A stretch of DNA of 64,000 nucleotides from Nodularia sp. NIES-3585. GTDB lineage: Bacteria; Cyanobacteriota; Cyanobacteriia; Cyanobacteriales; Nostocaceae. Positions within the stretch are counted from its first letter, which is position 1. The number at the start of each line of letters is the position of its first letter. Below the pieces are notes generated by a model. It saw only the letters and a program-made list of their open reading frames with translations. It did no database searches and was not told the DNA's origin. A program made the position numbers and the translations under genes. Where the stretch lies: the NCBI RefSeq assembly GCF_002218065.1, contig NZ_BDUB01000001.1:3319270-3383269 (forward strand), in the 5' to 3' direction. Positions 16,427-54,299 of the stretch are shown one piece after another.

Positions 16427-17563
16427 CTAATGACTACTATCTTTTGGTAGCGTGACTGTGAATACACTACCTCGCCCTTGTTCAGAGGTGAGTGTAATTG
16501 TACCACCGTGTGCTTCGATAATTCGGCTCGATAGATGCAGACCTAAACCACTACCAGACCGTTTATTTCTACCTTGGCGAAACCGCTCAAAAACAGTTGC
16601 TTGGTCTTCGGGCGCAATGCCATAACCAGTATCTGTAAATTCGATGATTACGCCATCTTTACCCTGAGAATTAGCTGATTTTTCCCAAATAGCAACTTCT
16701 ATCCCGCCTGTATCTGTAAACTTGATGGCATTGCCAATTAAGTTATTAAATACGCGTCGCAGTTCTAGGGGATCGCCCATTACTACACCAGCGGTTTCTT
16801 CCTGTGAATTTAACTTACTTGTATCTATTTTGAGAGCCAAGTTTTTCTCGCTGGCCAGAGGAGTGAGTTCACCACAGACTTCTTGAAGAATTTCCGGGAG
16901 ATTGCACTCTACATCGTTTAAAGTCTTTTTACCAGCCTCGAAGCGATAAACTTCTAATAGAGTGTTGACCATTTGCATTAAATTTTGATTGCTGCGAATC
17001 ATTACCGCGATCGCTTGTTTCATTTCTGGAGAAATTTCGCAGAAGGTTTCCTGTTGAAACAAGTCCAGCATCCGGTCAGCAGCCACTAGCGGGGTACGCA
17101 AATCATGAGTTAAACGCGAAACAAAATCTTCGCGCTGACGGGCCATTTTTTTTTGTTCGTCCAGACTGTGTTTGAGGCGTAAGAGCGATCGCACTCTGGC
17201 TAAAAGTTCGTCTGTATCAAATGGTTTACGAATAAAATCATCTGCACCAGCATCCAACCCTTCAACTACACTGGATTGGTGAAATGCCGTAATCAGCAGG
17301 ATCGGAATATAGCTCACATTCAAGTCAGGATTATTACGGATGCGCCGAGTCACTTCATAACCATCAATTCCTGGCATCATCACATCTAGCAAAATCAAAT
17401 CCGGTGGAGATTCTTCAATTTGCTGCAAAGCTGTTAAACCATCTGCAACTAAGTCAATCTCATAACCCTCACTTTCGAGAATTGTCTGAACCAAAATGAG
17501 ATTATCTCTAGTGTCATCAACGGCGAGAATACGGTCAATTTTAGGATTTTCCACAACAGACAT
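16427..17563 (-). CDS. Receiver/histidine kinase hybrid (response regulator first)
   Basis: The 378-residue protein has a receiver domain (residues 10-128, Asp60 in LILLDVMMPG), a HisKA dimerisation helix with His153 in RLTHDLRTPL, and an HATPase domain with NLIGNAIKFTDTG, FTDTGYGIAP and GSGLGLHLS. The order receiver then kinase is common in cyanobacteria; the receiver likely gates the attached kinase. There is no membrane segment, so it is cytoplasmic. It lies 27 bp after the similar gene at 17591, so the two form an operon. Confidence 0.92.
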   Translation of the reverse strand: MSVVENPKIDRILAVDDTRDNLILVQTILESEGYEIDLVADGLTALQQIEESPPDLILLDVMMPGIDGYEVTRRIRNNPDLNVSYIPILLITAFHQSSVVEGLDAGADDFIRKPFDTDELLARVRSLLRLKHSLDEQKKMARQREDFVSRLTHDLRTPLVAADRMLDLFQQETFCEISPEMKQAIAVMIRSNQNLMQMVNTLLEVYRFEAGKKTLNDVECNLPEILQEVCGELTPLASEKNLALKIDTSKLNSQEETAGVVMGDPLELRRVFNNLIGNAIKFTDTGGIEVAIWEKSANSQGKDGVIIEFTDTGYGIAPEDQATVFERFRQGRNKRSGSGLGLHLSSRIIEAHGGTITLTSEQGRGSVFTVTLPKDSSH

Positions 17564-17590
17564 GGTTTATCAACGGTTTATAAAAATAAT

Positions 17591-18925
17591 TTAGAGCTGG
17601 AAATTGGGAAAACCCATCGATGCTTTCGTGGATTTGGAGGGGGACTGGTGAGGGTTCTGAACCGAGCAAAAAATATCGTGACTATCTAAATTGTAAGCAG
17701 CCAGACTATCGGCTGTGGTTGGTAACGATAATTGCCGTGGTACTTCAATTCTAAACATAGAACCAACCCCCACTTGACTTTCCAAAATAATTTTGCCCCC
17801 CATCATTTGCACCAAGGAATCTATAATCGCTAAACCTAGCCCTGTTCCAGGATATTTGCGCGTGATACTTTGATCCACTTGCCGGAAAGCTTCAAAAATA
17901 TGTTTAAAATCTCTGGGCGCGATCCCAATACCTGTATCCCGAACCGCGATCGCTAATTGGTTTTTAGGAAGTTCTTTCACTTCCACCCAAATACAACCAG
18001 ATTCGGTGAATTTAATAGCATTGGATAATAAATTGATTAAAATCTGCCGCACACGCACTGAATCATTAAATATCAGCGGTTGTTGCATATCAATATCGAC
18101 TCGCAAAGACAGCTTTTTTGCTTCAGCCAGAGAACGCATTTCGGCGACGACAATATTGATAATTTTTGTTAAATCAAATAATTCCAGCTTTAACTCTAGT
18201 CGTCCTCCTTCTAGTTTAGAAAAATCCAGAACTTCATTTAATAACATCAGTAAATTCTTGCCATTGTTTAATATTCGCTCCACCATGTCTGTTTGCTGAT
18301 GGGTAAGCTTACCGAACTTAGGGCGCAACAATATTTGGGAAAAACCAATAATGGCATTCATCGGAGTCCGCAGTTCATGAGACATAGTTGCCAAAAACTG
18401 CGATTTCAGCCGTGATGCTTCCAACAGCTTGAAATTTTGTAACTGAATTTGTTGTCGTTGTTGTTCTAGTTCTTGATTCTGACGCAGCAGTTGCTCATTA
18501 CTTTCTCTAAGTCGCTGGTTTGCCAAAGCTGTCTGCATTTCAGCTTGGTGTATACGCATGGCATGGCGTAAAACCTGTGCTAATGTTTCTGAACATACCC
18601 TAGATTTAGAAAGATAGTCTGTAGCTCCAGCTTTCATCAACTCGACAGCGATTTGTTCATCTTTCTGGGCGGTAAGAACTACTAAAGGAACTTTGATTTC
18701 CGCAGCACGTAATCTTTGAATCAGCGCCAAACCGTCTTGATCTGGTAGGCGATAATCAAGGAAAACACAATCATAAGTAGTAGTTTTTAAAGTAGCCAGT
18801 GCGTCACGTCCGTCAGTTACCTCAGACAGTTCCAGACAAACACCTGCTTGAGTCAAAGCCCGACGCACCGCCATCCGGTCTACTTCATTCTCATCTACAA
18901 CCAAAATTCTCAGCGTTTCTTTCAT
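17591..18925 (-). CDS. Receiver/histidine kinase hybrid with coiled coil
   Basis: The 444-residue protein starts with a receiver domain (Asp57 in CVFLDYRLPD). A glutamine-rich coiled coil follows (about residues 125-170, ending in QQRQQIQLQNFKLLEASRLK). A HisKA helix comes next with His183 in ATMSHELRTPMNA, and then an HATPase domain (NLLSNAIKFTESG, GTGLGLAI). A 45-residue low-complexity tail closes it. It is the first gene of a two-gene minus-strand operon with 16427-17563. No sensor or membrane domain is present, so input must come through the receiver or the coiled coil. Confidence 0.92.
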   Translation of the reverse strand: MKETLRILVVDENEVDRMAVRRALTQAGVCLELSEVTDGRDALATLKTTTYDCVFLDYRLPDQDGLALIQRLRAAEIKVPLVVLTAQKDEQIAVELMKAGATDYLSKSRVCSETLAQVLRHAMRIHQAEMQTALANQRLRESNEQLLRQNQELEQQRQQIQLQNFKLLEASRLKSQFLATMSHELRTPMNAIIGFSQILLRPKFGKLTHQQTDMVERILNNGKNLLMLLNEVLDFSKLEGGRLELKLELFDLTKIINIVVAEMRSLAEAKKLSLRVDIDMQQPLIFNDSVRVRQILINLLSNAIKFTESGCIWVEVKELPKNQLAIAVRDTGIGIAPRDFKHIFEAFRQVDQSITRKYPGTGLGLAIIDSLVQMMGGKIILESQVGVGSMFRIEVPRQLSLPTTADSLAAYNLDSHDIFCSVQNPHQSPSKSTKASMGFPNFQL

Positions 18926-31585: not shown

Positions 31586-32749
31586 CTACCGGAGTAGTCT
31601 GATAGTCGCTCCTCGTCCATTTAAGGTCGTGCCGTTCGCGAAGCGTGCCGTAGGCATTAGCCCCATGCCGACCATTTCTATATTTTTAGAAGCATTTTCG
31701 TCCCTGTCGTGTTCAGCATTGCAATTTAAACACAGCACTGAACGAATAGAAAGATCCACTTTACCCCACCTATACCCACAACAAGAACAAGTCTGACTAG
31801 TGGGTTCCCATCGGCTAATCACCCTGAAATCACGATGAAGTTTTTCAGCTTTAGCCTCGCAAAATACCCGGAATTGTCGCCATCCCTGTAAACTAATTGC
31901 TCTTGCCAGTTTACGATTTCTGACCATTCCTGACACATTCAAATCTTCCAAAACAATTGCTTGGTTGTCGCTAACTACTTTAGTTGATAGTTTGTGTAGG
32001 AAATCTTGACGAGTATCCGCAATTTGATTATGCAGTTTAGCAATTTGAATTCGGGTTTTATTTCTACGCTTTGAGTCCTTTTGCTGTCGGGCTAATTGGC
32101 GCTGCTTGCGCCGAATTTGTTGATCCAACCTTGAGTAATCAGGGCTAATAGCTTTATCCCCGTTACTCATTACAGCAAAAGTTTTTATCCCTAAATCAAT
32201 ACCGATGCTTTGGTTCTTGGCATCAATTTGAATAGGTTCAATTTCTACTACAAAGCTCACAAAATAGCGGTTAGCACAGTCTTTTACGACAGTACAAGAA
32301 GTAGGTGCAGAAGGTAGTTGCCTAGACCAGATGGGCTTAACATTGCCGATTTTTGCCAGATACACCTGATTACCTTTGACTGAGAATCCGCCGATTCTAA
32401 AACGTGCAGATTGTTGGTTTGTCTTTTTCTTGAATTTTGGGCTACCAACTTTTTTGCCTTTTCGCTTACCCTTAAGGGAATCGAAAAAGTTTTTGTAAGC
32501 CACCCCTAAATCAGCTACCGATTGTTGCAACGGGATGTTGGAAACATCAGATAACCACGAACGTTCATCAGTCTTTTTAGCCTGGGTAATCACCAACTTT
32601 TGCAAGTCGTTGTTGCTTGGCAGTTTCTCGGATTTTTTACAGATAGCCAAAGCATCATTCCAAACTACGCGCACACAACCAAACAACTGAGCTAGAAGCC
32701 GTTGCTGTTGATTTGTTGGGTAGAATCGGAACTTATATCTGGCTTTCAC
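31586..32749 (-). CDS. tnpB: TnpB RNA-guided nuclease (transposon-encoded)
   Basis: The 387-residue protein begins MKARYKFRFYPTNQQQRLLA from a GTG with AAGGA upstream. The RuvC-like active site is intact: Asp in IGIDLGIKTFAV, Glu in AIVLEDLNVSGM and Asp in CNAEHDRDENASKNI. A four-Cys zinc ribbon is present (CSCCGYRWG and CLNCNAEHD). TnpB cuts DNA next to a target-adjacent motif, guided by an RNA made from the right end of its element. The C-terminal residues PTARFANGTT are encoded by a dispersed cyanobacterial repeat, so the tail is not ancestral. No TnpA is present. Confidence 0.92.
   Translation of the reverse strand: MKARYKFRFYPTNQQQRLLAQLFGCVRVVWNDALAICKKSEKLPSNNDLQKLVITQAKKTDERSWLSDVSNIPLQQSVADLGVAYKNFFDSLKGKRKGKKVGSPKFKKKTNQQSARFRIGGFSVKGNQVYLAKIGNVKPIWSRQLPSAPTSCTVVKDCANRYFVSFVVEIEPIQIDAKNQSIGIDLGIKTFAVMSNGDKAISPDYSRLDQQIRRKQRQLARQQKDSKRRNKTRIQIAKLHNQIADTRQDFLHKLSTKVVSDNQAIVLEDLNVSGMVRNRKLARAISLQGWRQFRVFCEAKAEKLHRDFRVISRWEPTSQTCSCCGYRWGKVDLSIRSVLCLNCNAEHDRDENASKNIEMVGMGLMPTARFANGTTLNGRGATIRLLR
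31629..31656. repeat. Short dispersed repeat inside the 3' end of tnpB
   Basis: GTTCGCGAAGCGTGCCGTAG followed by GCATTAG matches the repeat at 55580-55605 (GTTCGCGTAGCGTGCCGGAG, then GC). It remains in frame within tnpB and would also lie in the region expected to supply the guide-RNA scaffold. Confidence 0.65.
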
Positions 32750-32773
32750 TATTTTTCCTTCAAAACTGCTAGT

Positions 32774-32798
32774 ATTGTATATCATATGAAAATACAAT
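32774..32798. promoter_or_regulatory. Inverted repeat between tnpB and the RHH gene (possible operator)
   Basis: ATTGTAT (32774-32780) and ATACAAT (32792-32798) face each other across 11 bases. They fill most of the 52-bp gap between the divergent tnpB and RHH start codons. A binding site for the RHH protein is an attractive inference. Confidence 0.4.
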
Positions 32799-32801
32799 GC
32801 T

Positions 32802-32945
32802 ATGAACAAAAGTGTATTTTTTCGATTAACCGAGGAAGAATTGGCGCATCTCGAAAGTTACTGCCAGGTGACTCAGAGAACGAAATCTGATGTACTTAGA
32901 GATTTGATTAGAAAACTGAAAACAAATAAAAAGCCGTCGTTCTAG
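32802..32945 (+). CDS. Small RHH (CopG-like) protein carried by the IS element
   Basis: This 47-residue frame reads MNKSVFFRLTEEELAHLESY, then CQVTQRTKSDVLRDLIRKLK, then TNKKPSF. It has the strand-helix-helix layout of ribbon-helix-helix DNA-binding proteins, with TKSDVLRDLIRKL as the second helix. It is divergent from tnpB and lies inside the element's left end, so its stop codon falls in the terminal hairpin. It may repress tnpB or help position the element. Its size makes it easy to miss. Confidence 0.7.
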   Translation: MNKSVFFRLTEEELAHLESYCQVTQRTKSDVLRDLIRKLKTNKKPSF

Positions 32946-44602: not shown

Positions 44603-45631
44603 TTAATGCACAAGTCTATCCTTCAAATTACGATATTTAAGCTGAATATTTTTAACTTTTTGGGTCAGAAAACTACTAGTAGTCTTTTGCAAACGCACTA
44701 ACTGACTCTGACGCTTAAAACTTTTGGGTCTTTCCTCCGGTGACTTTAAATAGCGATAATGCAAAAACACGTCCCGGTATGGAATCTCTACATCTTCTCC
44801 ACTACAAAGGGTTTTGAATTTTGACGAGCTGATACTCATATAGTGCAGGTATGTCAGAGCTTGCCCGTGGTCATAGAGGATGTTATCTACGACATCAAAT
44901 TTAGAAGACCAGTGGTTACCAGTTGCTTGATCATGACAGGCATAATTATAGTAAGAAATGCCACTCCTTAATACTAAATAGTTTATGAGTGTTTGATCAG
45001 ATGCCACCCAGTGCAGTACATCGACTTCACCTGATTCCAATTTATCTCGTAAATTTGCTAACATAGCATCATCAATAATATTCTTTTTAGAAGCAAACCA
45101 ACCAGAGCAAAAAATATTATTTCTAAAGTTTTCTATTTGAAAAACCTCTTTAATTTTCTCTTCCGTCCAGTTGAAAACATAGTTTAAATCAGATTGATAT
45201 TGAAAATCATTGGTCACCCAATCATATTCATCTAACTTCTGATAAACATAATCCACTGGTTTCATCAAAAGTGTATCAGCATCAAAAAAGATGAACTTGT
45301 CAAAAAGTCCATCTAGACAACAAAATTTACGGAATCTTTCATTGCGATACTTATTTTTCAACCCACGTTGTTGTATTATCTGTTGTGATCTGGTGTGTGA
45401 TTTATAGATCCTACTGCCAAATTCTCCCCAACGAGCCAGAGAAGCAGAGTCATCAAATAAACTGACATTAGCTCTAGATGCAATCTCAGCCTTGACCTTA
45501 TCTATATTTTCATTATAGGGAATTACACAAACAGGAATTTGCCTACCAGCATTAGCTTCTATACTATTGAGCAATGCAACTAATTGGTCATAGACAACAT
45601 CATTGGCCAGGGTATAAATACCATCAATCAT
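44603..45631 (-). CDS. GT-A-fold glycosyltransferase-like protein (Npun_R2821/R2823-type), copy 3
   Basis: The 342-residue protein begins MIDGIYTLANDVVYDQLVAL and has the metal-binding motif FIFFDADTLLM (Asp117, Asp119). A later block is IFCSGWFASKKNIIDD, then WVASDQTLINYL and LTYLHYMSIS. The order matches family 8-like nucleotide-sugar transferases. It is homologous to the two genes upstream, especially the one at 46542. AGGAG lies twelve bases before the ATG. It is the last gene of a minus-strand glycan cluster and probably acts in the cytoplasm on the growing glycan. The sugar is unknown. Confidence 0.8.
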   Translation of the reverse strand: MIDGIYTLANDVVYDQLVALLNSIEANAGRQIPVCVIPYNENIDKVKAEIASRANVSLFDDSASLARWGEFGSRIYKSHTRSQQIIQQRGLKNKYRNERFRKFCCLDGLFDKFIFFDADTLLMKPVDYVYQKLDEYDWVTNDFQYQSDLNYVFNWTEEKIKEVFQIENFRNNIFCSGWFASKKNIIDDAMLANLRDKLESGEVDVLHWVASDQTLINYLVLRSGISYYNYACHDQATGNHWSSKFDVVDNILYDHGQALTYLHYMSISSSKFKTLCSGEDVEIPYRDVFLHYRYLKSPEERPKSFKRQSQLVRLQKTTSSFLTQKVKNIQLKYRNLKDRLVH

Positions 45632-45647
45632 GGGAATACTCCTAATA

Positions 45648-46538
45648 TTAAGTACGAAAATTCATCAAACTAAATAAACGACGATTCAACTTTGAAATCA
45701 GAGCAAATTTACCTTCATGAAGGTAACGATAGTGTTCCCACAATTTCCAATATGGGCTACCAATTTTCATTTTTGTCCCTGCCCAATGGAGATATTGCAG
45801 TCTTTTTCCTTTATCATAGAGGACGTATTCTTCCTGTTGGAAATTGCGCGAATTAGCCCAACTACCAGGGCCTCCCCCAGGAATTTTCACGAGATTTCCA
45901 CGTTTAGCAATTAACTTCAGAATGAGATAATTAAGAATTGGCTGATCTGTGACTCCTTCTGAAAAATCAAAATATTCACGATGATTAGCACATTCGCGCA
46001 AGGCTTCATCCATTTGTTGTTCGGTAATAGTTCCTTTTTTGGAAGCCCAAAAGCCGCTATTGAAAACATCTTCTAGTTGTGCATCTGTAAAAATATTCTG
46101 CTCTTTGACAAAGGGGGAAAAGATATTTCTTAGCTTGTCATTGGCATGATGATAATCACAACAGAAGAAATCAACTTCTGCAAGTTTATTTAAATTATCG
46201 GCAATTTTTTCAAAAACGACAATATCAGTATCAATATAAATAAACTCATCTAAAGGCCCAAACCATGCCACCAGTTTACGCATTTTGTTGGGTAAAGCGA
46301 GGAAATCTCGATCAAAAATTTCACCTATGCGGTTAGTGAATTTCTCAATCAGTTCTAAATCTGGGAAAATTTTTACGTTGTGTAAGGTTGCAAGTTTATC
46401 TGCTACTTGGTGATAATTATCATTAAAAGGGATGAGATAAACTTGAACATCTTTGTCATAGAGCCGAATACTATTGAGTAAGGCGATCGCATTCTCGATC
46501 ACACGATCATTAGCAACAATATAAATTCCCCTAATCAT
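45648..46538 (-). CDS. GT-A-fold glycosyltransferase-like protein (Npun_R2821/R2823-type), copy 2
   Basis: The 296-residue protein starts MIRGIYIVANDRVIENAIAL and has the DxD motif EFIYIDTDIVVFE (Asp103, Asp105). VFNSGFWASKKGTITEQQM and VTDQPILNYLIL follow, with LQYLHWAGTKM near the end. It is the most diverged of the three paralogues and lacks the C-terminal extension of the others. AAGGATAATTT precedes the ATG. The gap to the next gene is 16 bp, and to the previous 3 bp, so translation is probably coupled. Confidence 0.8.
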   Translation of the reverse strand: MIRGIYIVANDRVIENAIALLNSIRLYDKDVQVYLIPFNDNYHQVADKLATLHNVKIFPDLELIEKFTNRIGEIFDRDFLALPNKMRKLVAWFGPLDEFIYIDTDIVVFEKIADNLNKLAEVDFFCCDYHHANDKLRNIFSPFVKEQNIFTDAQLEDVFNSGFWASKKGTITEQQMDEALRECANHREYFDFSEGVTDQPILNYLILKLIAKRGNLVKIPGGGPGSWANSRNFQQEEYVLYDKGKRLQYLHWAGTKMKIGSPYWKLWEHYRYLHEGKFALISKLNRRLFSLMNFRT

Positions 46539-46541
46539 AAA

Positions 46542-47519
46542 TTATCCTTGTTTAATTAGCTTAAATTTTCGCAAAGCTCGGACGAGTAAACTTGGTGATG
46601 GTGCGCGGTAACTCTGGGGAGGATTTTTAAACACTGGACGCTGTTCTGGTTCATTCAGGTAGCGATAGTAGAGAAATAAATCTCGATAAGGAAAATCAAT
46701 ATTTTCTCCAGCACACACTGCTTGATTAATATTAGGAGGAACACCAATATAATGGAGGTAAGTTAGTCGATTACCTCTGTCATAAAGAATATGCTCTCTT
46801 TCTTCAAAGTGCTTTGAGGTGACAGTACAGCCTGTGATTGTATCGTTAGGTAAGTTATATACTAAGTTATAAACTGGGATACCAGACCTCATAAACATAT
46901 AGTTGACAACTGACTGATCACCTTTGGGATATAGTATTTCTTTTTCGCCTCCTCTGAGATAAGATAGTAATTGTTCTTGTTTTTCTTGAGGAAATAATCC
47001 TTTTTTGGAAGCGTAAAATCCAGAACAAAATATTTCTTTTTTGATCCGCTCTTCAGCAAAAACCTTGAATAGCTTAGGTGATTTTACGTTATATACTTTA
47101 TCTGGATATTTAAACTGAAAATCGTAAACAACACAATCATTTTCTGCTAATTTATCAAATACTAATGACAGTGAATTCATCAATATAGTGTCTGCATCTA
47201 GATAAACGAACTTGTCAAATGGTCCATCAAAGGCGCAAAATCGCCGATGTCCACCATAAATTCGATATTTATTGCGGTTCATGCTAGCAGGACTAGCCTC
47301 TAACATAAATTTATCCCAGCGATTGATTGACTCTTGATCATCGTAAATAAATACATTCGGGCGCTTGGCTATTTCTTCAGCAATTCGCTGTGTCTGATCA
47401 TCAAAGGGATAGATACAAACAGGAATTTCTTTTCCTAAAAAAACATCAATACTATTGAGCAAAGCCACCAGTTGATCGAAAACATAATCATTGCCAAGGG
47501 TACAAATACCATTCATCAT
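46542..47519 (-). CDS. GT-A-fold glycosyltransferase-like protein (Npun_R2821/R2823-type), copy 1
   Basis: The 325-residue protein shares layout with its two neighbours: MMNGICTLGNDYVFDQLVAL at the start, FVYLDADTILM (Asp108, Asp110), and EIFCSGFYASKKGLFPQ in the middle. GDQSVVNYMFM and LTYLHYIGVP follow. Two ATG codons (47519, 47516) are possible starts. It begins 3 bp from the end of the GT10-like gene. Three tandem paralogues imply duplication, each perhaps adding a different sugar. Confidence 0.8.
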   Translation of the reverse strand: MMNGICTLGNDYVFDQLVALLNSIDVFLGKEIPVCIYPFDDQTQRIAEEIAKRPNVFIYDDQESINRWDKFMLEASPASMNRNKYRIYGGHRRFCAFDGPFDKFVYLDADTILMNSLSLVFDKLAENDCVVYDFQFKYPDKVYNVKSPKLFKVFAEERIKKEIFCSGFYASKKGLFPQEKQEQLLSYLRGGEKEILYPKGDQSVVNYMFMRSGIPVYNLVYNLPNDTITGCTVTSKHFEEREHILYDRGNRLTYLHYIGVPPNINQAVCAGENIDFPYRDLFLYYRYLNEPEQRPVFKNPPQSYRAPSPSLLVRALRKFKLIKQG

Positions 47520-47521
47520 TA

Positions 47522-48481
47522 TTATGATTGTTGATTAACAAATTCTGATAACCAGTTAAGCAAATTCAGTTTGTGTAAGATGATTTGCCGAGCTTCCGCG
47601 ATCGCATCTTTAGCAGTATACCAAGCATCAGGTGTAGCAGTCACTTCTCGAATGTAAGCGATGCCTTTTTCGTCTAAACTTGGCAACCGTAAAAAACTAC
47701 CAGGGGGTAATAATTTATCCGCAGCCGACCCACCATAATAAATTGGCAGACACCAAGCCAGTAAAGAGTCCCATAATTTTTCACTCACATACCAACTATT
47801 ATCGGCATAATTTTCAATGGCGAGATTGTAATAATAAGGAGCCATACCATGCCATTTGCTACCTAATTCACCAGAAGTTTTGCACCCTGAAGGCAAATTG
47901 CGCCCATACAAATCAAATTTAATTTCATGAGATTGTAGCGACTGTAAAAAATCTAATCTCTGGCGATGGTTAGCTGTACGATTAATTCCAGAGGTAATCC
48001 AACTACAAGGGTGAACTTTTTCAGGTGGTGGCATTTCATTTAATTCCCGAAACGAGTTGCTATGATACCAAATGGCAGGCATATAATTAGGAGTGGGCGC
48101 AAAGTCATCAGGTCCAGAAATATAACCGCAATAGTTTTGCGCTTCCTGATAATTGTATTTATTTGTGGCGACAATCTCAGTTAATGGTGGTTCCCGCAAA
48201 AGATATATCACCCGTTCTTGAGGAACACTACGCAGAATAGAGTTGATGTTTATTTCTGGTTTTTGCGTTTTTTGACGTAACTTTTCCCACCAGGGTTTCG
48301 GCTGGGCAGGTTTAGGAAAGTCGTACTGATACATCAGCAGAAAATCTGGTTTTGCCTGAAGCGCCTGCATTTGTACATTATCCCAAATGCCAAAGTGATT
48401 TGGAGTTTGTTGCCACAGCCAATCTCCTCTTGTGTCAAGATTTCGATAGCTGCTAATCATACCAATAGTTTTTATATTCAT
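47522..48481 (-). CDS. Family 10-like glycosyltransferase (alpha-1,3-fucosyltransferase type)
   Basis: The 319-residue protein ends its catalytic part with YYYNLAIENYADNSWYVSEK and LWDSLLAWCLPIYYGG, the diagnostic C-terminal block of GT10 (fucosyltransferase) enzymes. Earlier is VIYLLREPPLTEI. It would transfer fucose or a related sugar from a GDP-donor in the cytoplasm. The ATG at 48481 is preferred to the TTG at 48490. It lies 2 bp before the first GT-A paralogue and 117 bp after the pyruvyltransferase-like gene. Confidence 0.85.
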   Translation of the reverse strand: MNIKTIGMISSYRNLDTRGDWLWQQTPNHFGIWDNVQMQALQAKPDFLLMYQYDFPKPAQPKPWWEKLRQKTQKPEININSILRSVPQERVIYLLREPPLTEIVATNKYNYQEAQNYCGYISGPDDFAPTPNYMPAIWYHSNSFRELNEMPPPEKVHPCSWITSGINRTANHRQRLDFLQSLQSHEIKFDLYGRNLPSGCKTSGELGSKWHGMAPYYYNLAIENYADNSWYVSEKLWDSLLAWCLPIYYGGSAADKLLPPGSFLRLPSLDEKGIAYIREVTATPDAWYTAKDAIAEARQIILHKLNLLNWLSEFVNQQS

Positions 48482-48598
48482 TTGAGTCAATATGAGTTGT
48501 GAGACGGCACTAGGTAAGCTTTTGGTTGTGGTTACTTCACTGGAATAGAAAATATATTTTTTTTGACATTAGCAGTTAACATATAATTAATTTTAAGT

Positions 48599-49471
48599 TC
48601 ATGTTTCAGCTAAAATATCCAATATTTGAGAGTAGTATTCATGATTACTTGCGCGATTTTCGTGAAGGCTCTCACGGTAAGCCTTGCAATCTTTTAGATA
48701 ATTTTGCCAATTATCAATATTACAGAAAAACTTGTTTTGATCACCGATTTCAAACAATATTTTATTGAATAAAGATAACTTCTTTTTCTGTTGTACCCAC
48801 TTTTGAATAGGAAAAATTCCGGGAGTATGTTTTAGTGTATGGAATTTGCTGCTAAATGGAAAAGATAAAACTTTTCTACCAAGTAGTATTCCCCAATATG
48901 CTCCATGATAAGAACTTGTTAATATAGTTTCACCAGAACCAAGAAAATCTAAAATTTCCTCAATATTTTGATTATTATTAGTCATTTGGGGAATATTACC
49001 AATTTTTATTTGAAATTTTTTATGTGAAAACACTACAAACTCATGTTTTATATCCCGCTTTTTATCAAATGCTGGGTGCATACAACTAGCGCAAGGTACC
49101 CAATTATCTTTATAGTTAAAATCCCGAATACCCACTAAATCAAAATCCGTTAAATATTGAGAGTAGTCAAAGTTATGCAATTCCTCGTGCGTAAAACTAC
49201 TACCATAACTCTGCTGACCAATTCCCCAAGCAATTAATTTTGTATTTGCTTTAGACTCAATCAGTTTTGCAAAGGAATCTAAAAATGGTTTATATAGCAG
49301 TCCCCCTCCACCTACAATAATATGTTTGTCTCTGATGTCATTAACATTTATGTTTCGGATATCAGCTTGTTCAACGGTATAACCAGGAAAAGTAAAATAT
49401 TTCGTAGGGGCTGAAAATAAATCTCCGATATTTGTAGAATCAATAACATGATAATTAATAATTGATTTCAT
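48599..49471 (-). CDS. Polysaccharide pyruvyltransferase-family protein
   Basis: The 290-residue protein has the family layout: NIGDLFSAPTKYF near the N-terminus, HIIVGGGGLLYKP, KLIAWGIGQQSYG, and ILTSSYHGAYWGILLGRKVL. These proteins add pyruvate ketal groups to polysaccharide sugars, giving negative charge, or are catalytically distinct relatives. It sits in an AT-rich part of the glycan cluster. The ATG at 49471 has a weak upstream signal. A target sugar cannot be inferred. Confidence 0.85.
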   Translation of the reverse strand: MKSIINYHVIDSTNIGDLFSAPTKYFTFPGYTVEQADIRNINVNDIRDKHIIVGGGGLLYKPFLDSFAKLIESKANTKLIAWGIGQQSYGSSFTHEELHNFDYSQYLTDFDLVGIRDFNYKDNWVPCASCMHPAFDKKRDIKHEFVVFSHKKFQIKIGNIPQMTNNNQNIEEILDFLGSGETILTSSYHGAYWGILLGRKVLSFPFSSKFHTLKHTPGIFPIQKWVQQKKKLSLFNKILFEIGDQNKFFCNIDNWQNYLKDCKAYRESLHENRASNHEYYSQILDILAET

Positions 49472-49530: not shown

Positions 49531-50664
49531 TTAGTTGGTAGTGTTTATTGTCACTTTTGGATCAAAGAAAGAAGTAACAATATCATTTATTTCTGACATA
49601 AACCTTTGGGTAGAAAATAAATTTCTTTGCGTAGTTAATGATTGAAGTAGTTTGTTTTGTTTTGCAGAACTACTTAAAACAGCAATAATTTTTTCTACAG
49701 CTTCTTCTTCTGTGTTGAAAAATAATTCCTCATTATTCTCACCTACAATTTCAACTTGTCCGCCCTCATTTCTCACAAAAGGAATAGCACCAGCTTTCAC
49801 CATTTCGGCAATAGAAATACCAAAAGGTTCTTTTTTAAAGTGAATACCGTATTTACAATTAGCTAGAACTTTAATATATTCTTCATAGGGAAGATTTTCG
49901 TGTAAGGTGATCCAAGATGAGTTTTCTCGCACCATTTTTTTGACTAAATTAGTATATTTCCATTCATAAAAACCACCGCCTCCACCTGTGATATGTAGCT
50001 TAATATCAAAGCCTCGCTCACGAACTAGCTTGAGAATCTTAATTACTTTATGAGGCTGTTTAGGTTCTACTATTCTGCCACTACAAATGAATGCATATTC
50101 TTTATCAATCCAGGGTATATCAGGGGTGTCTATAACAACAGGAGGATAGACAACATTAGCATTAATTCCATAGTGCTTATTGACATTATCGGCAACACAG
50201 TAAGAATTGGCAATGGAGATATTGTTGAGTAGCTGTTCGTGAGAAAAAGTGGATATTTTTCTATGAAAAGGTTTACCCTCAAGAACTTTGATCCAATGTA
50301 TATACTGAATTCCTTTTTGACCCATATCCATTGCATTATAAGCAGATATAACTAGGTCATATTCGTGGCTATTTTGCTTAAAAATACGAATTAAAAGATG
50401 AAAAAACAGCATTTTGACATTATTGTTTTTTACCATCATAAGATAGCAAAGAATGTCCACAAATTTGGGGAGAATAGTCTTAATCTTTATGTCTTCATTT
50501 GATATACTTGTTCCGTACATGGAATTGAGCTTTTCGATATGAATCTCTCCCAGAGTAAATAATGTTAATTCATACTTATTTTTCAATGCTTGGATAATCC
50601 ATAATCCTACTGCTTCTGCACCACCACCCATAAAATATGGATAAAAAATAGCTATTTTTTGCAT
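49531..50664 (-). CDS. Glycosyltransferase family 4 (GT-B fold)
   Basis: The 377-residue protein begins MQKIAIFYPYFMGGGAEAVG, typical of GT4, and contains YAFICSGRIVEPKQPHKVIK, KLHITGGGGGF and EPFGISIAEMVKAGAIPFV. The last is the C-terminal donor-binding EX7E-like motif. It should add one sugar from a nucleotide donor on the cytoplasmic face of the membrane. It is 71 bp from the ABC exporter and 59 bp from the pyruvyltransferase-like gene. Its text is distinctly AT-rich compared with genes outside the cluster. Confidence 0.88.
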   Translation of the reverse strand: MQKIAIFYPYFMGGGAEAVGLWIIQALKNKYELTLFTLGEIHIEKLNSMYGTSISNEDIKIKTILPKFVDILCYLMMVKNNNVKMLFFHLLIRIFKQNSHEYDLVISAYNAMDMGQKGIQYIHWIKVLEGKPFHRKISTFSHEQLLNNISIANSYCVADNVNKHYGINANVVYPPVVIDTPDIPWIDKEYAFICSGRIVEPKQPHKVIKILKLVRERGFDIKLHITGGGGGFYEWKYTNLVKKMVRENSSWITLHENLPYEEYIKVLANCKYGIHFKKEPFGISIAEMVKAGAIPFVRNEGGQVEIVGENNEELFFNTEEEAVEKIIAVLSSSAKQNKLLQSLTTQRNLFSTQRFMSEINDIVTSFFDPKVTINTTN

Positions 50665-50735: not shown

Positions 50736-52997
50736 TTATTTCACAAATTTTTTGTCGAGTTTAATTTTTTCTAATGTTTCTACTTTATCAAGTAAGTAAA
50801 TAGCTAAATTATATGATTCAGAGATTAATTGATTTTCTTCTTGGGCATTATCTATCAAATCATCTCCAAGTAAAACTAGGGAGTTTATCATATTGTTGAG
50901 TTTTCTCTGAAGTTCATCAAAGATTTGCCTGATGTTTTCATCATGATCATTAATTTTCTGGTTTTGACTAACAAATGGTGATGATTGCCAGCTATTTTGT
51001 AATTGAATACTCTCCTGAAAGATTTCAATATTTGTAATAATTCTCAATGTTGATTTGTAAGATTCGTTCAGTAATTCTTGCCGTTCTTTGGCATCATCTA
51101 CCATGCCATCAGCTAATAATTTCAAGCAACCAATAATAGAATTTAATCGTGTGCGAACTTCGTAAGAAATACGCATGAAACCTTGATGAGATGTGCTAAA
51201 ACTTTCTACTTGTTCGCCAAATTGCATTGTATAGAGACGCGAATAGTAATCACCTTTTTCTAAAAGTTCTTTATGGGTTCCCAGTTCCACTACACGTCCT
51301 TGATCGAAGACGGCAATTTGGTCAGCTTTTTGGACGGTAGAAAGGCGATGGGCAATTACTAAGGTTGTGCGATCGCGGCTCAAATTATCTATTGCTGCTT
51401 GCACCAAACGCTCAGAAACAGTATCTAATGCTGAGGTAGCTTCATCTAAAATCAAAATTTCTGGATCTTGCAGCAAAGCACGCGCTATGGCTAGGCGCTG
51501 GCGCTGTCCACCGGATAACATGACACCGCGATCGCCAACAATAGTATCAAAACCCTGCGGCAATTGGCAAATGAATTCATAGGCATTTGCCCGTTTGCTT
51601 GCTGTAATAATTTCATCTTCGCTAGCACCTGGTTTTCCATAGGCGATGTTATATTTGATCGAGTCATTGAAAAGAAAAGTATCTTGACTGACGATACCCA
51701 TTGCCTTACGCAGAGTTTTGATATCAAATTTGCGTATATCAACCCCATCAATAGCAATATAGCCAGATACGGGGTCATAAAATCTGGGCAAAATATCAGC
51801 TAGGGTTGATTTACCAGCACCAGAACTGCCTACCAAAGCTAGAGTAGTACCTCGTCGTAAGTATAAATCCACATCCTTCAGCACCAATTTATCATAATTA
51901 GGATATGCGAAAGATATGTTATTGAAATGTACTCCCTCCTGCAAACTTGCATAAGGTAAATTACCGTTGAACATTAATGGCTTATTATGCCGCTGTAAAA
52001 ATTCCGCTACCATATCCACACTAGCTGAGTTATTGGCAAAGCTACTGCGAAGAGTATTTAACTGTGAAACAAGAGGTAGCAGCCGCAATAGTACTAATAA
52101 ATATGTCAGCAGAACGGCTGAAAGCGAAGCAACTTGATCCGCAAATAATATTCGTCCTACAAAGACAATCAAAATTAAAGATATGAGTCCAGCAACTTCA
52201 CTAATTGGTGCGATGATATTGGAATTAACCTGGGACTGAAATTCGGCTGTTTCACGGGAATTAATTAATTCATTAATCTTTTTATATGTTAATTCTTCAT
52301 TAGCAGTTGCTTTAACTAAGCGAATTCCACTCAAAGTTTCTATCAGATTATTAGTGAGCGTTTTAGACATTTCGGTCAACAACTTACCAAAGTATTTAGA
52401 ACGCCTAATCGCAAACTGATTTGTTAAAGTGACACAACCTAGTAAAACCGTAGAAACAATAGTCAATTGCCAAGAAATTGACAATAATATAAACAGAAAA
52501 ACTAAAATTGTGATTATAAGTATTATTAATTTAATTATATTATTTACAGAACTAGCAGCACGGGGAATTTCTCCATTAAGGCGATTCATTAAATCACCAA
52601 GTTTCATTTTTGTATAATAATTAATATCAATATCTAGTAATAACTGTATACCTGCCTTACGCATATCAGATGTAAGTGTTCGAGATACAGAACTAGATGC
52701 TAAACTACTGGCGTAGCTAGCTGCATTTTTCAAAAAAATTATCAATATAATTGCTGCTGCCATCATTCCCAAGCGATAACTTTCGGGAAAATTATCAAAT
52801 GGCGACATAATAGCTCTAATAATGGGCGGAGCATTAGTTAAATCTATTTCTTGTCCTACTATTTTTAAAATAATTGGCACAATCATTGCTGTACTGATGC
52901 CATTAAATAAAGCTCCAGAAAATCCCAAGGCTATTGTTAAAATGATTCTACCTGGGTAAGGTTTAGCGAATTTTACCAGCTGATTAAGAGTAGACAT
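50736..52997 (-). CDS. ABC exporter with a duplicated histidine-kinase-dimerisation-like C-terminus
   Basis: The 753-residue protein is a half-transporter. A six-helix exporter membrane domain (residues 15-320) precedes an ATPase with Walker A GSSGAGKST (390-398), signature LSGGQ (494-498), Walker B ILILDEA (Glu519) and His550. An unusual extension follows: two tandem repeats of about 53 residues at 609-661 (ISYEVRTRLNSIIGCLKLLA...) and 691-743 (IFDELQRKLNNMINSLVLLG...). They resemble kinase DHp hairpins but have Tyr or Asp where the phospho-accepting His belongs. Glycosyltransferase neighbours suggest lipid-linked glycan export. Similarity to heterocyst polysaccharide exporters such as HepA is possible, but those lack this tail as far as I know. 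Confidence 0.88.
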   Translation of the reverse strand: MSTLNQLVKFAKPYPGRIILTIALGFSGALFNGISTAMIVPIILKIVGQEIDLTNAPPIIRAIMSPFDNFPESYRLGMMAAAIILIIFLKNAASYASSLASSSVSRTLTSDMRKAGIQLLLDIDINYYTKMKLGDLMNRLNGEIPRAASSVNNIIKLIILIITILVFLFILLSISWQLTIVSTVLLGCVTLTNQFAIRRSKYFGKLLTEMSKTLTNNLIETLSGIRLVKATANEELTYKKINELINSRETAEFQSQVNSNIIAPISEVAGLISLILIVFVGRILFADQVASLSAVLLTYLLVLLRLLPLVSQLNTLRSSFANNSASVDMVAEFLQRHNKPLMFNGNLPYASLQEGVHFNNISFAYPNYDKLVLKDVDLYLRRGTTLALVGSSGAGKSTLADILPRFYDPVSGYIAIDGVDIRKFDIKTLRKAMGIVSQDTFLFNDSIKYNIAYGKPGASEDEIITASKRANAYEFICQLPQGFDTIVGDRGVMLSGGQRQRLAIARALLQDPEILILDEATSALDTVSERLVQAAIDNLSRDRTTLVIAHRLSTVQKADQIAVFDQGRVVELGTHKELLEKGDYYSRLYTMQFGEQVESFSTSHQGFMRISYEVRTRLNSIIGCLKLLADGMVDDAKERQELLNESYKSTLRIITNIEIFQESIQLQNSWQSSPFVSQNQKINDHDENIRQIFDELQRKLNNMINSLVLLGDDLIDNAQEENQLISESYNLAIYLLDKVETLEKIKLDKKFVK

Positions 52998-53099: not shown

Positions 53100-54299
53100 C
53101 TACAGTAGAGAGAAAACCTGAGATAGTGTCAATGCCATAGTATCAACACTATAATATTTAACACACCTTTCTCTAGCCAACTGGCCTTTTGCTTTTGCTT
53201 CATCTAAATTGTGGAATATCCATTGAATTTGTTCAGCTATTTGTTCTGGAGAACTAGAATCAACTAAATAACCCGTATCGCCGAGGATTTCAGGAATATC
53301 TCCTACCGTTGTTGCCAAAACAGGTTTCGCCATAGCCATACCATCGGTTAATTTCAGAGGAAATTGAGCCAATGCGGCTGGGGTATTTCGCTGAGGAACC
53401 ACAATAACGTGTGCTGCTGCTACAATTTGAGGCATTTCTGTAGATGGATATTTCGGTAACTTAATTATCCAACGCCCCCACTTTTCCATAAGTTGAGCAT
53501 CATAATCATCATAAGGACTACCACCTACAATCACTAACCTTAAATCAGGCTCATTGAGCTGTTCCAAAGCCATTAAGACATCTTCAACTCCTTTGTATGG
53601 CCTTGGCGCACCAGGAAACATTAAAATCCGATATCCAGAAAGCCCATAACGCGCTCTACTTTCTTCAGCATTATACTGGTCTGGATTAAACAGATCAGTA
53701 TCTTTTCCGTTGGGCAAATAAACACCGCCAAATCGCTCTTTTAAAAATTGGGTATGAATTGTAATAGCATCAGCATTTTCTGTCAGACCTTCAACCCATT
53801 TTAAATATAGTGGATGATCTGGATGTCTCAAAGCACCATTTGTTTTAAAAATATCTCGTAAAACTTGTTTTGGGGAAGGACGATACTGCCATTTTTCGCC
53901 CCCATGCCAACTCATTTCCCAGTCATCTATATCTAAGATAATTGGTCGATGAGTTTTTAACTTTTTGAGCATAGATATACCGAAGGTTGTGGGCTTAGGT
54001 CTCATCGCATAAATAATATCACCATCAAGTTTTTTGAGGACTTGAGAAGCTGATTTTATAAATTGCGGATAGTTATAGCCCATCACATGACTAACTGGGA
54101 TTTCCGATTGAGGAATTACTGCTGGTTGGTCACCAAAAACAAATCCGATAATTTCTACTTGATACTTAAGTTTTTGGAGTGCTTGAGCTAGCAAAAATGA
54201 ACGTACCCCTCCACCACCCCATCTCCCAGCTCCAGCACTCGATAGATCGCTGACTAGTATTGAAACTTTTAATTGAGTTTTGCTTTGCTGTAAACTCAC
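53100..54299 (-). CDS. Glycosyltransferase family 4 (GT-B fold)
   Basis: The 399-residue protein has SSAGAGRWGGGGVRSFLLAQ near the N-terminus, the donor-site region MFPGAPRPYKGVEDVLMALE, LRLVIVGGSPYDDY, and the C-terminal VVPQRNTPAALAQFPLKLTD followed by GMAMAKPVLAT. This is a GT4-type transferase. It starts with GTG at 54299, with no ATG close by; the binding site is weak. It is the first gene of the eight-gene minus-strand cluster, 102 bp ahead of the ABC exporter. Confidence 0.88.
   Translation of the reverse strand: MSLQQSKTQLKVSILVSDLSSAGAGRWGGGGVRSFLLAQALQKLKYQVEIIGFVFGDQPAVIPQSEIPVSHVMGYNYPQFIKSASQVLKKLDGDIIYAMRPKPTTFGISMLKKLKTHRPIILDIDDWEMSWHGGEKWQYRPSPKQVLRDIFKTNGALRHPDHPLYLKWVEGLTENADAITIHTQFLKERFGGVYLPNGKDTDLFNPDQYNAEESRARYGLSGYRILMFPGAPRPYKGVEDVLMALEQLNEPDLRLVIVGGSPYDDYDAQLMEKWGRWIIKLPKYPSTEMPQIVAAAHVIVVPQRNTPAALAQFPLKLTDGMAMAKPVLATTVGDIPEILGDTGYLVDSSSPEQIAEQIQWIFHNLDEAKAKGQLARERCVKYYSVDTMALTLSQVFSLL

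Follow-up and report, generated by a model that had tools for sequence, protein, structure and literature searches.

A histidine kinase-like hairpin tail on a cyanobacterial ABC exporter of a glycan locus

Introduction

The closest working analogue of the protein described here is DivL, a pseudo-kinase of Caulobacter with Tyr in place of the phospho-accepting His and with neither kinase nor phosphatase activity; its binding to DivK is disrupted by the substitutions R553A (position +3 relative to the His position), T557N (+7), Y562A (+12) and H579E, according to the accessible part of the source (PMC4211667). DivL carries Arg at +3 and reuses the surface of its DHp domain for docking, but, unlike the exporter, it is no transporter and has retained a CA domain along with PAS domains. 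Involvement of the DHp domain in protein–protein control, the role proposed below for the exporter tail, is also found in RetS-type kinases (6dk7 and 6dk8 among the PDB matches of the tail), which differ from the tail in being full kinase-like proteins. RetS is said to bind GacS. Coupling of an ABC transporter to a DHp protein has been described for BceAB–BceS; in the available portion of that account (PMC10314905) the two are separate proteins, the kinase is active, and contact is made via membrane helices.

Searches of open-licence PMC full texts gave no description of a HisKA/DHp tail on an ABC exporter, and the accessible part of PMC1183210 makes no mention of one. For some of these exporters HisKA would come up in domain databases, and parts of the arrangement may have been seen without comment. 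Here we analyse such an exporter, encoded in a stretch of 64,000 nucleotides of Nodularia sp. NIES-3585 (the window), together with its relatives. A pump with a kinase-derived tail may be wired into cell signalling; if so, ABC export and two-component signalling would be physically joined in a single protein that is found across cyanobacteria.

The exporter and its genomic context

The window protein is a type IV ABC half-exporter, MsbA/HepA-like, with Walker A, LSGGQ and Walker B all present (GSSGAGKST at residue 390, LSGGQ at 494, DEATSALD at 518). The first-pass annotation of the window had placed an ABC exporter with two hairpins in this reading frame, and its coordinates proved exact, the frame lying on the minus strand (Table 1). 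Neither of the two outcomes that the annotation had named as refuting its observation came about.

Table 1. Exporter gene, its parts and the adjoining genes (positions in the window)
Feature	Position	Strand	Remarks
ABC half-exporter of 753 aa ending in two DHp-like hairpins	50736..52997	-	ORF listing, Pfam
ABC exporter core, residues 1-595	51213..52997	-	ABC_membrane 42-304, ABC_tran 373-522
Hairpin 1, residues 600-671, HK-derived and DHp-like	50985..51200	-	H-box S-Y612-E-V-R615-T-R-L-N; strong purifying selection
Hairpin 2, residues 680-752, degenerate second copy	50742..50960	-	D694 at His position; more relaxed
Glycosyltransferase, group 1/family 4-like, directly upstream	53100..54299	-	cluster there in 65/71 loci
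Glycosyltransferase group 1, directly downstream	49531..50664	-	
Polysaccharide pyruvyl transferase-like	48599..49471	-	
Glycosyltransferase family 10, fucosyltransferase-like	47522..48490	-	
Three tandem paralogs, one sequence cluster (44603-45631, 45648-46538, 46542-47519)	44603..47519	-	

The score against the HepA equivalog NF045513 was about 551 bits (549.5–551) with a curated cut-off of 725, and that against MsbA (TIGR02203, lipid A exporter) was 438.5 bits with a cut-off of 602, so that neither cut-off was reached. Identity with HepA itself was therefore ruled out, the more so as the HepA scoring over the cut-off in the same genome is a different gene (1018.6 bits), of which the window exporter is a separate paralog; its 622-aa open frame is too short for a hairpin tail. 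The window exporter shares the core of HepA/MsbA-type half-exporters, also lies in a glycan locus, and is probably a glycan-export pump. BceAB is presumably of a different ABC type.

The operon comprises genes for a group 1/4 glycosyltransferase, the ABC exporter, a group 1 glycosyltransferase, a pyruvyl transferase, a GT10 enzyme and three related GT8-like proteins, followed by rplI and dnaB (assigned by eye). Among the tandem paralogs, one passes the Pfam GT8 threshold, one has a sub-threshold mannosyltransferase match, and the middle one has no Pfam match; this glycosyltransferase-like cluster recurs in 40 of 71 loci. The link with glycosyltransferases suspected in the first-pass annotation was borne out, since 65 of the 71 loci, counting the window, have a same-strand gene of this family directly upstream, and three further loci are at contig edges. 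By sequence cluster, the upstream glycosyltransferase was present in 66 of the 71 loci, a gene judged by eye to be metallo-hydrolase-like in 51, rplI in 44 and dnaB in 35. Since the same neighbours recur, the locus looks ancient and vertically kept.

Relationship of the C-terminal hairpins to kinase DHp domains

The two repeats that follow the ATPase domain align with each other beyond chance, as had been claimed from the sequence: the Smith-Waterman score was 96, whereas 5000 shuffles gave at most 52, and 5000 shuffles preserving the hydrophobic pattern at most 78. A profile built from 36 one-hairpin orthologs only matched both window copies, at 89.6 and 54.0 bits; no stretch in 1750 shuffled sequences scored above 7.8 bits. 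When the tail profile was run on 942 neighbouring ORFs lacking LSGGQ and on their reversals, a truncated ABC tail (L147|3) scored 115.8 bits and one other ORF (L158|8) 18.2 bits, with nothing further above 10.2 bits. AlphaFold2 modelling of the tail alone, as one chain with 24 sequences, gave four helices (residues 600-629, 636-671, 680-711 and 718-752; mean pLDDT 83.8, pTM 0.79), in line with the helical hairpins anticipated earlier. Structural comparison of this model with the PDB returned mostly generic and designed helical bundles, which are uninformative on kinship. A chance repeat or a generic coiled coil was ruled out by the plain shuffles, the pattern-preserving shuffles and the specificity controls.

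The HisKA search proposed in the first-pass annotation gave a sub-threshold match for the window protein (Pfam HisKA, residues 610-655, E=0.0045, 17.4 bits, cut-off 26.9), while 41 of 52 full-length proteins, the window protein included, matched at E<=0.01, the best at 3.3e-11. The tail profile in turn matched 19 kinase segments at 56–74 bits and more distant ones at lower scores; among them was a GAF-HisKA-HATPase kinase of the same genome (L002), and the other segments had an ATPase-domain motif by pattern, with exceptions. Profile–profile comparison (hhalign) with kinase hairpins, the sets being re-aligned separately, yielded E 1.3e-27 (probability 99.8%) for hairpin 1 of the one-hairpin set and E 2e-14 (98.3%) for hairpin 2, values biased in favour of the kinase segments, which had been selected with the hairpin profile; column-shuffled controls (five each) had probabilities of at most 1.5%. 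Eleven PDB profile matches were obtained at E<=1 (best E 1.2e-4), ten of them to named kinases or sensor proteins, RetS and DivL included, and one to an 'ATP-binding protein'. On the tree of the short domain (130 of 133 rows, few columns), one starred branch parts the ABC hairpins from the kinase hairpins, which is consistent with a single capture. Rows shorter than 45 residues were left out of this tree, of the conservation analysis and of the profile–profile comparison.

Judged by these comparisons, both hairpins are homologous to the HisKA/DHp hairpin of a cyanobacterial histidine kinase family, as the first-pass annotation had supposed. The turn 'DGMxDDPEEQ' is common to the tail and to cyanobacterial HisKA kinases such as L002, but the tail differs from these in being fused to a transporter, in lacking HATPase_c and the H-box Pro, and in having mostly Tyr for His. 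HATPase_c was found neither among the 14 families listed for the window protein nor among the 23 listed for the 52 proteins. One could also suppose that the hairpins are a chance coiled-coil resemblance or an assembly artefact without biological meaning; the Pfam HisKA score of the window protein alone, being under the cut-off, would permit this, but the tail is carried by an ABC exporter in 70 of 71 named loci, is under purifying selection (see below), and scores above all repeat shuffles, profile shuffles and column-shuffled controls, which makes this explanation scarcely credible.

Distribution of the tail

A locus scan of a species-genome collection with the tail profile, which required one peptide motif at +26 to +35 and thus missed diverged tails, returned 71 named loci, all cyanobacterial by name. 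Three of the 70 loci that encode ABC exporters with a hairpin tail are partial. The remaining one (L128, Okeania) is a 73-aa tail ORF standing alone beside an assembly gap (100 Ns); the three frames read there show no ABC motif, and it was therefore not counted as ABC. Six of the 70 ABC loci were unusable as full proteins or in pairs; after L118, L139 and L147 were dropped, the full-protein set consisted of 67 proteins with 49–86% identity to the window protein. A second set was assembled by genome search and comprised 92 loci, all 92 with an ABC tail, and 51 distinct tails, 30 of them with the motif; these tails were still found by tail likeness and may share species with the 71. No relative of the tail was found in viral contigs.

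In a phylum-wide sample of 386 genomes, with two candidates scored per genome, 74 had a match at E<=1e-150, and the matching frame had the length expected with a tail in 69 of them, the exceptions being G321, G424, G331, G025 and G013; in G168, G315 and G501 the tail was seen separately. With a profile of the ATPase domain plus tail and ten candidates scored per genome, at least 74 of 386 genomes were positive, while an alternative count of 100 of 386 mixes in true kinases. The orthologs in G321, G424 and G331 (58–66% identity) stop just after the ATPase with no tail remnant, and hence the tail is dispensable in some lineages; the proteins in G025 and G013 (45–46% identity) likewise stop there without a remnant and may be paralogs. 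The tail-less orthologs L190, L191 and L192 constitute natural tail-loss strains.

A rapidly built tree of 68 ABC cores places the two-hairpin form in one clade of 33 rows (SH-aLRT 100), Nostocales by name, and the rows outside it have mostly one hairpin. The '2 hairpins' label on this tree was set by tail length and wrongly takes in L150, which, like L147, has a long tail with one hairpin; in L153 the second copy is weak (17.8 bits). The description 'histidine-less, with two hairpins' thus suits the window protein and not the group, in which His is retained in 21 of 71 sequences and one hairpin prevails outside this clade. We infer from its spread across the class that the fusion is old, and it would have arisen once.

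The linker between the ATPase and hairpin 1 measures 13–32 aa in 36 one-hairpin loci and is near-constant in long-tail loci (17 aa in 30 of 34). In two sister ABC exporters of the cyanobacterial family f36, a ComFB domain is inserted after the ATPase and ahead of a DHp-like hairpin (L186, residues 641-718 of 893; L187, residues 630-709 of 877), and ABC–ComFB–hairpin frames occurred in at least 3 of 244 sampled genomes among the matches listed, all in f36. The ComFB family is reported to bind c-di-AMP and c-di-GMP, according to the available part of PMC12313861. Another ABC exporter with two hairpins, seemingly independent of the first and from outside the order of the window organism, occurs in the same family f36 (L189, residues 722-802 and 815-878).

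The phospho-acceptor position

Replacement of the acceptor His by Tyr in the first repeat and by Asp in the second, as read in the first-pass annotation, was verified (Y612 and D694). In 71 hairpin-1 sequences (70 named loci plus the window), position 0 is occupied by Tyr in 49, His in 21 and Gln in one, and in the 51 distinct tails of the second set by Tyr in 36 and His in 15. Arg at +3 and Leu at +6 are present in 71/71 (Arg+3 also in all 51), position +1 is Glu in 63 and Asp in 6, position +4 is Thr in 54, Ser in 11, Asn in 5 and Arg in one, and position +7 is Asn in 64 and Thr in 7. The H-box Pro at +5 was found in none of the 71 sequences and in none of the 51 distinct tails, while both His and this Pro are present in 23/23 kinase segments. 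Hairpin 1 thus reads as a DHp module devoid of catalytic parts, with no kinase ATPase domain and with the H-box Pro lost.

The ABC tree requires at least eight changes of state at position 0, one of which is that to the single Gln. The 67 codons read at this position are TAC/TAT for Tyr (45), CAC/CAT for His (21) and CAG for Gln (one), and Tyr and His codons differ by one transition; an aromatic or planar side chain therefore seems to be required there, but not phosphorylation. A phosphorelay role of the window protein was rejected as the main reading in view of Y612, the missing CA domain and the His/Tyr switching.

A broader possibility is active phospho-signalling, in which the hairpin would either dephosphorylate response regulators or, in tails that retain His, accept phosphate from a kinase in trans. 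The residue T/N at +4, which acts in HisKA phosphatases, is present in 59/71 sequences, and the kinase residue E/D at +1 in 69/71; both E+1 and T+4 are kept in 21/21 His-bearing tails, compared with E+1 in 41/49 and T+4 in 32/49 Tyr-bearing ones. As far as the consulted part of PMC3510030 goes, T/N at +4 is essential for HisKA phosphatase activity, in CrdS among others, while loss of His merely reduces it in CrdS and EnvZ and abolishes it in PleC; the Pro after the T/N matters strongly, its replacement sharply cutting the CrdS phosphatase. Set against this are the absence of that Pro from 71/71 sequences, Ser or Arg at +4 in 12/71, the state changes at the His position (one of them to Gln), which are unlike an essential acceptor, and the fact that the nearest analogue, DivL, is no phosphatase (PMC4211667, same part). 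The association of His with E+1 and T+4 is, with five independent pairs, inseparable from ancestry. We consider active phospho-signalling improbable.

Selection and surface conservation

In 14 hand-picked close pairs, the median dN/dS was 0.115 for the core (14 pairs), 0.09 for hairpin 1 (13 pairs; range 0.01–0.29), 0.21 for hairpin 2 (10 pairs) and 0.265 for the linker (10 pairs, from printed values); hairpin 1 exceeded the core in 6 of 13 pairs. With the search-motif columns left out, the hairpin-1 median was still 0.09 (range 0.01–0.31), and pooled pN/pS was 0.101 for hairpin 1, compared with 0.132 in the core and 0.257 in hairpin 2. Purifying selection on hairpin 1 is about as strong as that on the transporter, and hairpin 2 is more relaxed.

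Hairpin 1 retains surface residues like those of kinases, and its face around the old His is highly conserved: besides R+3 and N+7, G+11 is found in 66/71 and L+15 in 71/71 sequences, and in the 51 distinct tails of the second set R+3, N+7, G+11 and L+15 are found in 51, 49, 51 and 50. On helix 2, E26, E29 and Y35 are present in 71/71 of the named set, an invariance that is partly built in because the locus scan searched the motif at +26 to +35, and in 49, 45 and 49 of the 51 tails of the second set, where positions +26, +29, +30 and +35 are conserved in 45–50. In hairpin 2, G+11 (7/32) and L+15 (9/32) are lost in most sequences while R+3 (22/32), N+7 (26/32) and Y35 (27/32) are retained, so that the contrast with hairpin 1 is only partial. 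The conservation moment, with outward-facing residues assigned from an ideal 100-degree helix, was not significant for helix 1 of hairpin 1 (p=0.58); in helix 2 conservation points to the hydrophobic core (21 degrees, p=0.13), and in hairpin 2 it lies within 13 and 24 degrees of the hydrophobic direction (p=0.08 and 0.003). The surface argument consequently rests on single positions.

The core-directed conservation of helix 2 and hairpin 2 suits the main rival to partner docking, in which the hairpins would just dimerise or brace the ATPase domains with no external partner. DHp hairpins are dimerisation modules by origin, AlphaFold2 packs the four helices within one chain, the linker is near-constant in long-tail loci, and BmrA provides a precedent for an exporter whose C-terminal helix can be essential for activity (PMC11774805, in the part available). 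Such a passive tether is harder to reconcile with the outward positions of helix 1 of hairpin 1, which are as invariant as the core, with the variable linker of one-hairpin loci, and with a two-hairpin chain, which could satisfy its own bundle and would have no need to tether. We regard it as a serious but rather doubtful explanation.

Possible function of the tail

The reading that we prefer, and whose chances we take to be about even, is that a dead DHp module by the ATPase domains docks a signalling partner and, working much as DivL or RetS do, controls the pump with no transfer of phosphate. In one-hairpin pumps, the two hairpins of the ABC homodimer would together make a DHp-like four-helix bundle next to the ATPase domains. 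Where each chain has two hairpins, as in the window protein, it would form a bundle by itself, with hairpin 2 as the structural partner of hairpin 1. The face formed around the old His by R+3, N+7, G+11 and L+15 would be the binding site, most probably for the receiver of a response regulator or for the DHp of a related kinase, and docking would control the pump or let its state be sensed; the exported substrate would presumably be a lipid-linked glycan. More tentatively, and with a somewhat less than even chance of being right, one could hypothesise that the pseudo-DHp binds such a receiver or kinase DHp and so either opens or closes export according to the signalling state or, following export flux, titrates the regulator.

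A rigid brace accounts less well than a regulatory cassette for the range of linker lengths and the inserted ComFB domain. At the docking positions of DivL, hairpin 1 of the exporters is invariant at +3, has a conserved Asn at +7 and varies at +12; if the spacing is ungapped, the usual Asn+7 and Glu+29 correspond to changes that disrupt DivL–DivK binding in the accessible part of PMC4211667. A partner other than that of DivL is therefore to be expected. The non-significant conservation moment, the near-constant linker of long tails and the absence of the tail from some orthologs count against docking.

The first-pass annotation had envisaged a four-helix docking platform that may couple export to a kinase or response regulator. 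Its four helices are predicted, while its coupling to a kinase or response regulator found no echo in the gene neighbourhood: a pattern search of flanks of up to 10 kb revealed no consistent two-component neighbour, with HK-like genes in 4/71 loci (L158, L149, L102 and L130) and RR-like genes in 1/71.

If the preferred docking reading is true, a catalytically dead, kinase-derived hairpin kept on an exporter through much of the evolution of cyanobacteria would be a compact tie of surface glycan export to signalling, and the second hairpin of Nostocales would turn an inter-subunit bundle into an intra-subunit one. The His/Tyr switching and the step from one to two hairpins are natural experiments on pseudo-DHp domains stripped of all else.

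The sole locus with RR-like genes nearby, L102, has an HK-like gene seven genes off and RR-like genes at distances of six, eight and nine. Elsewhere in the window, 16427-18925 encodes a pair of neighbouring proteins that contain receiver, HisKA and HATPase domains, and an ORF at 31586-32809 on the minus strand resembles, by eye, a TnpB-type transposase.
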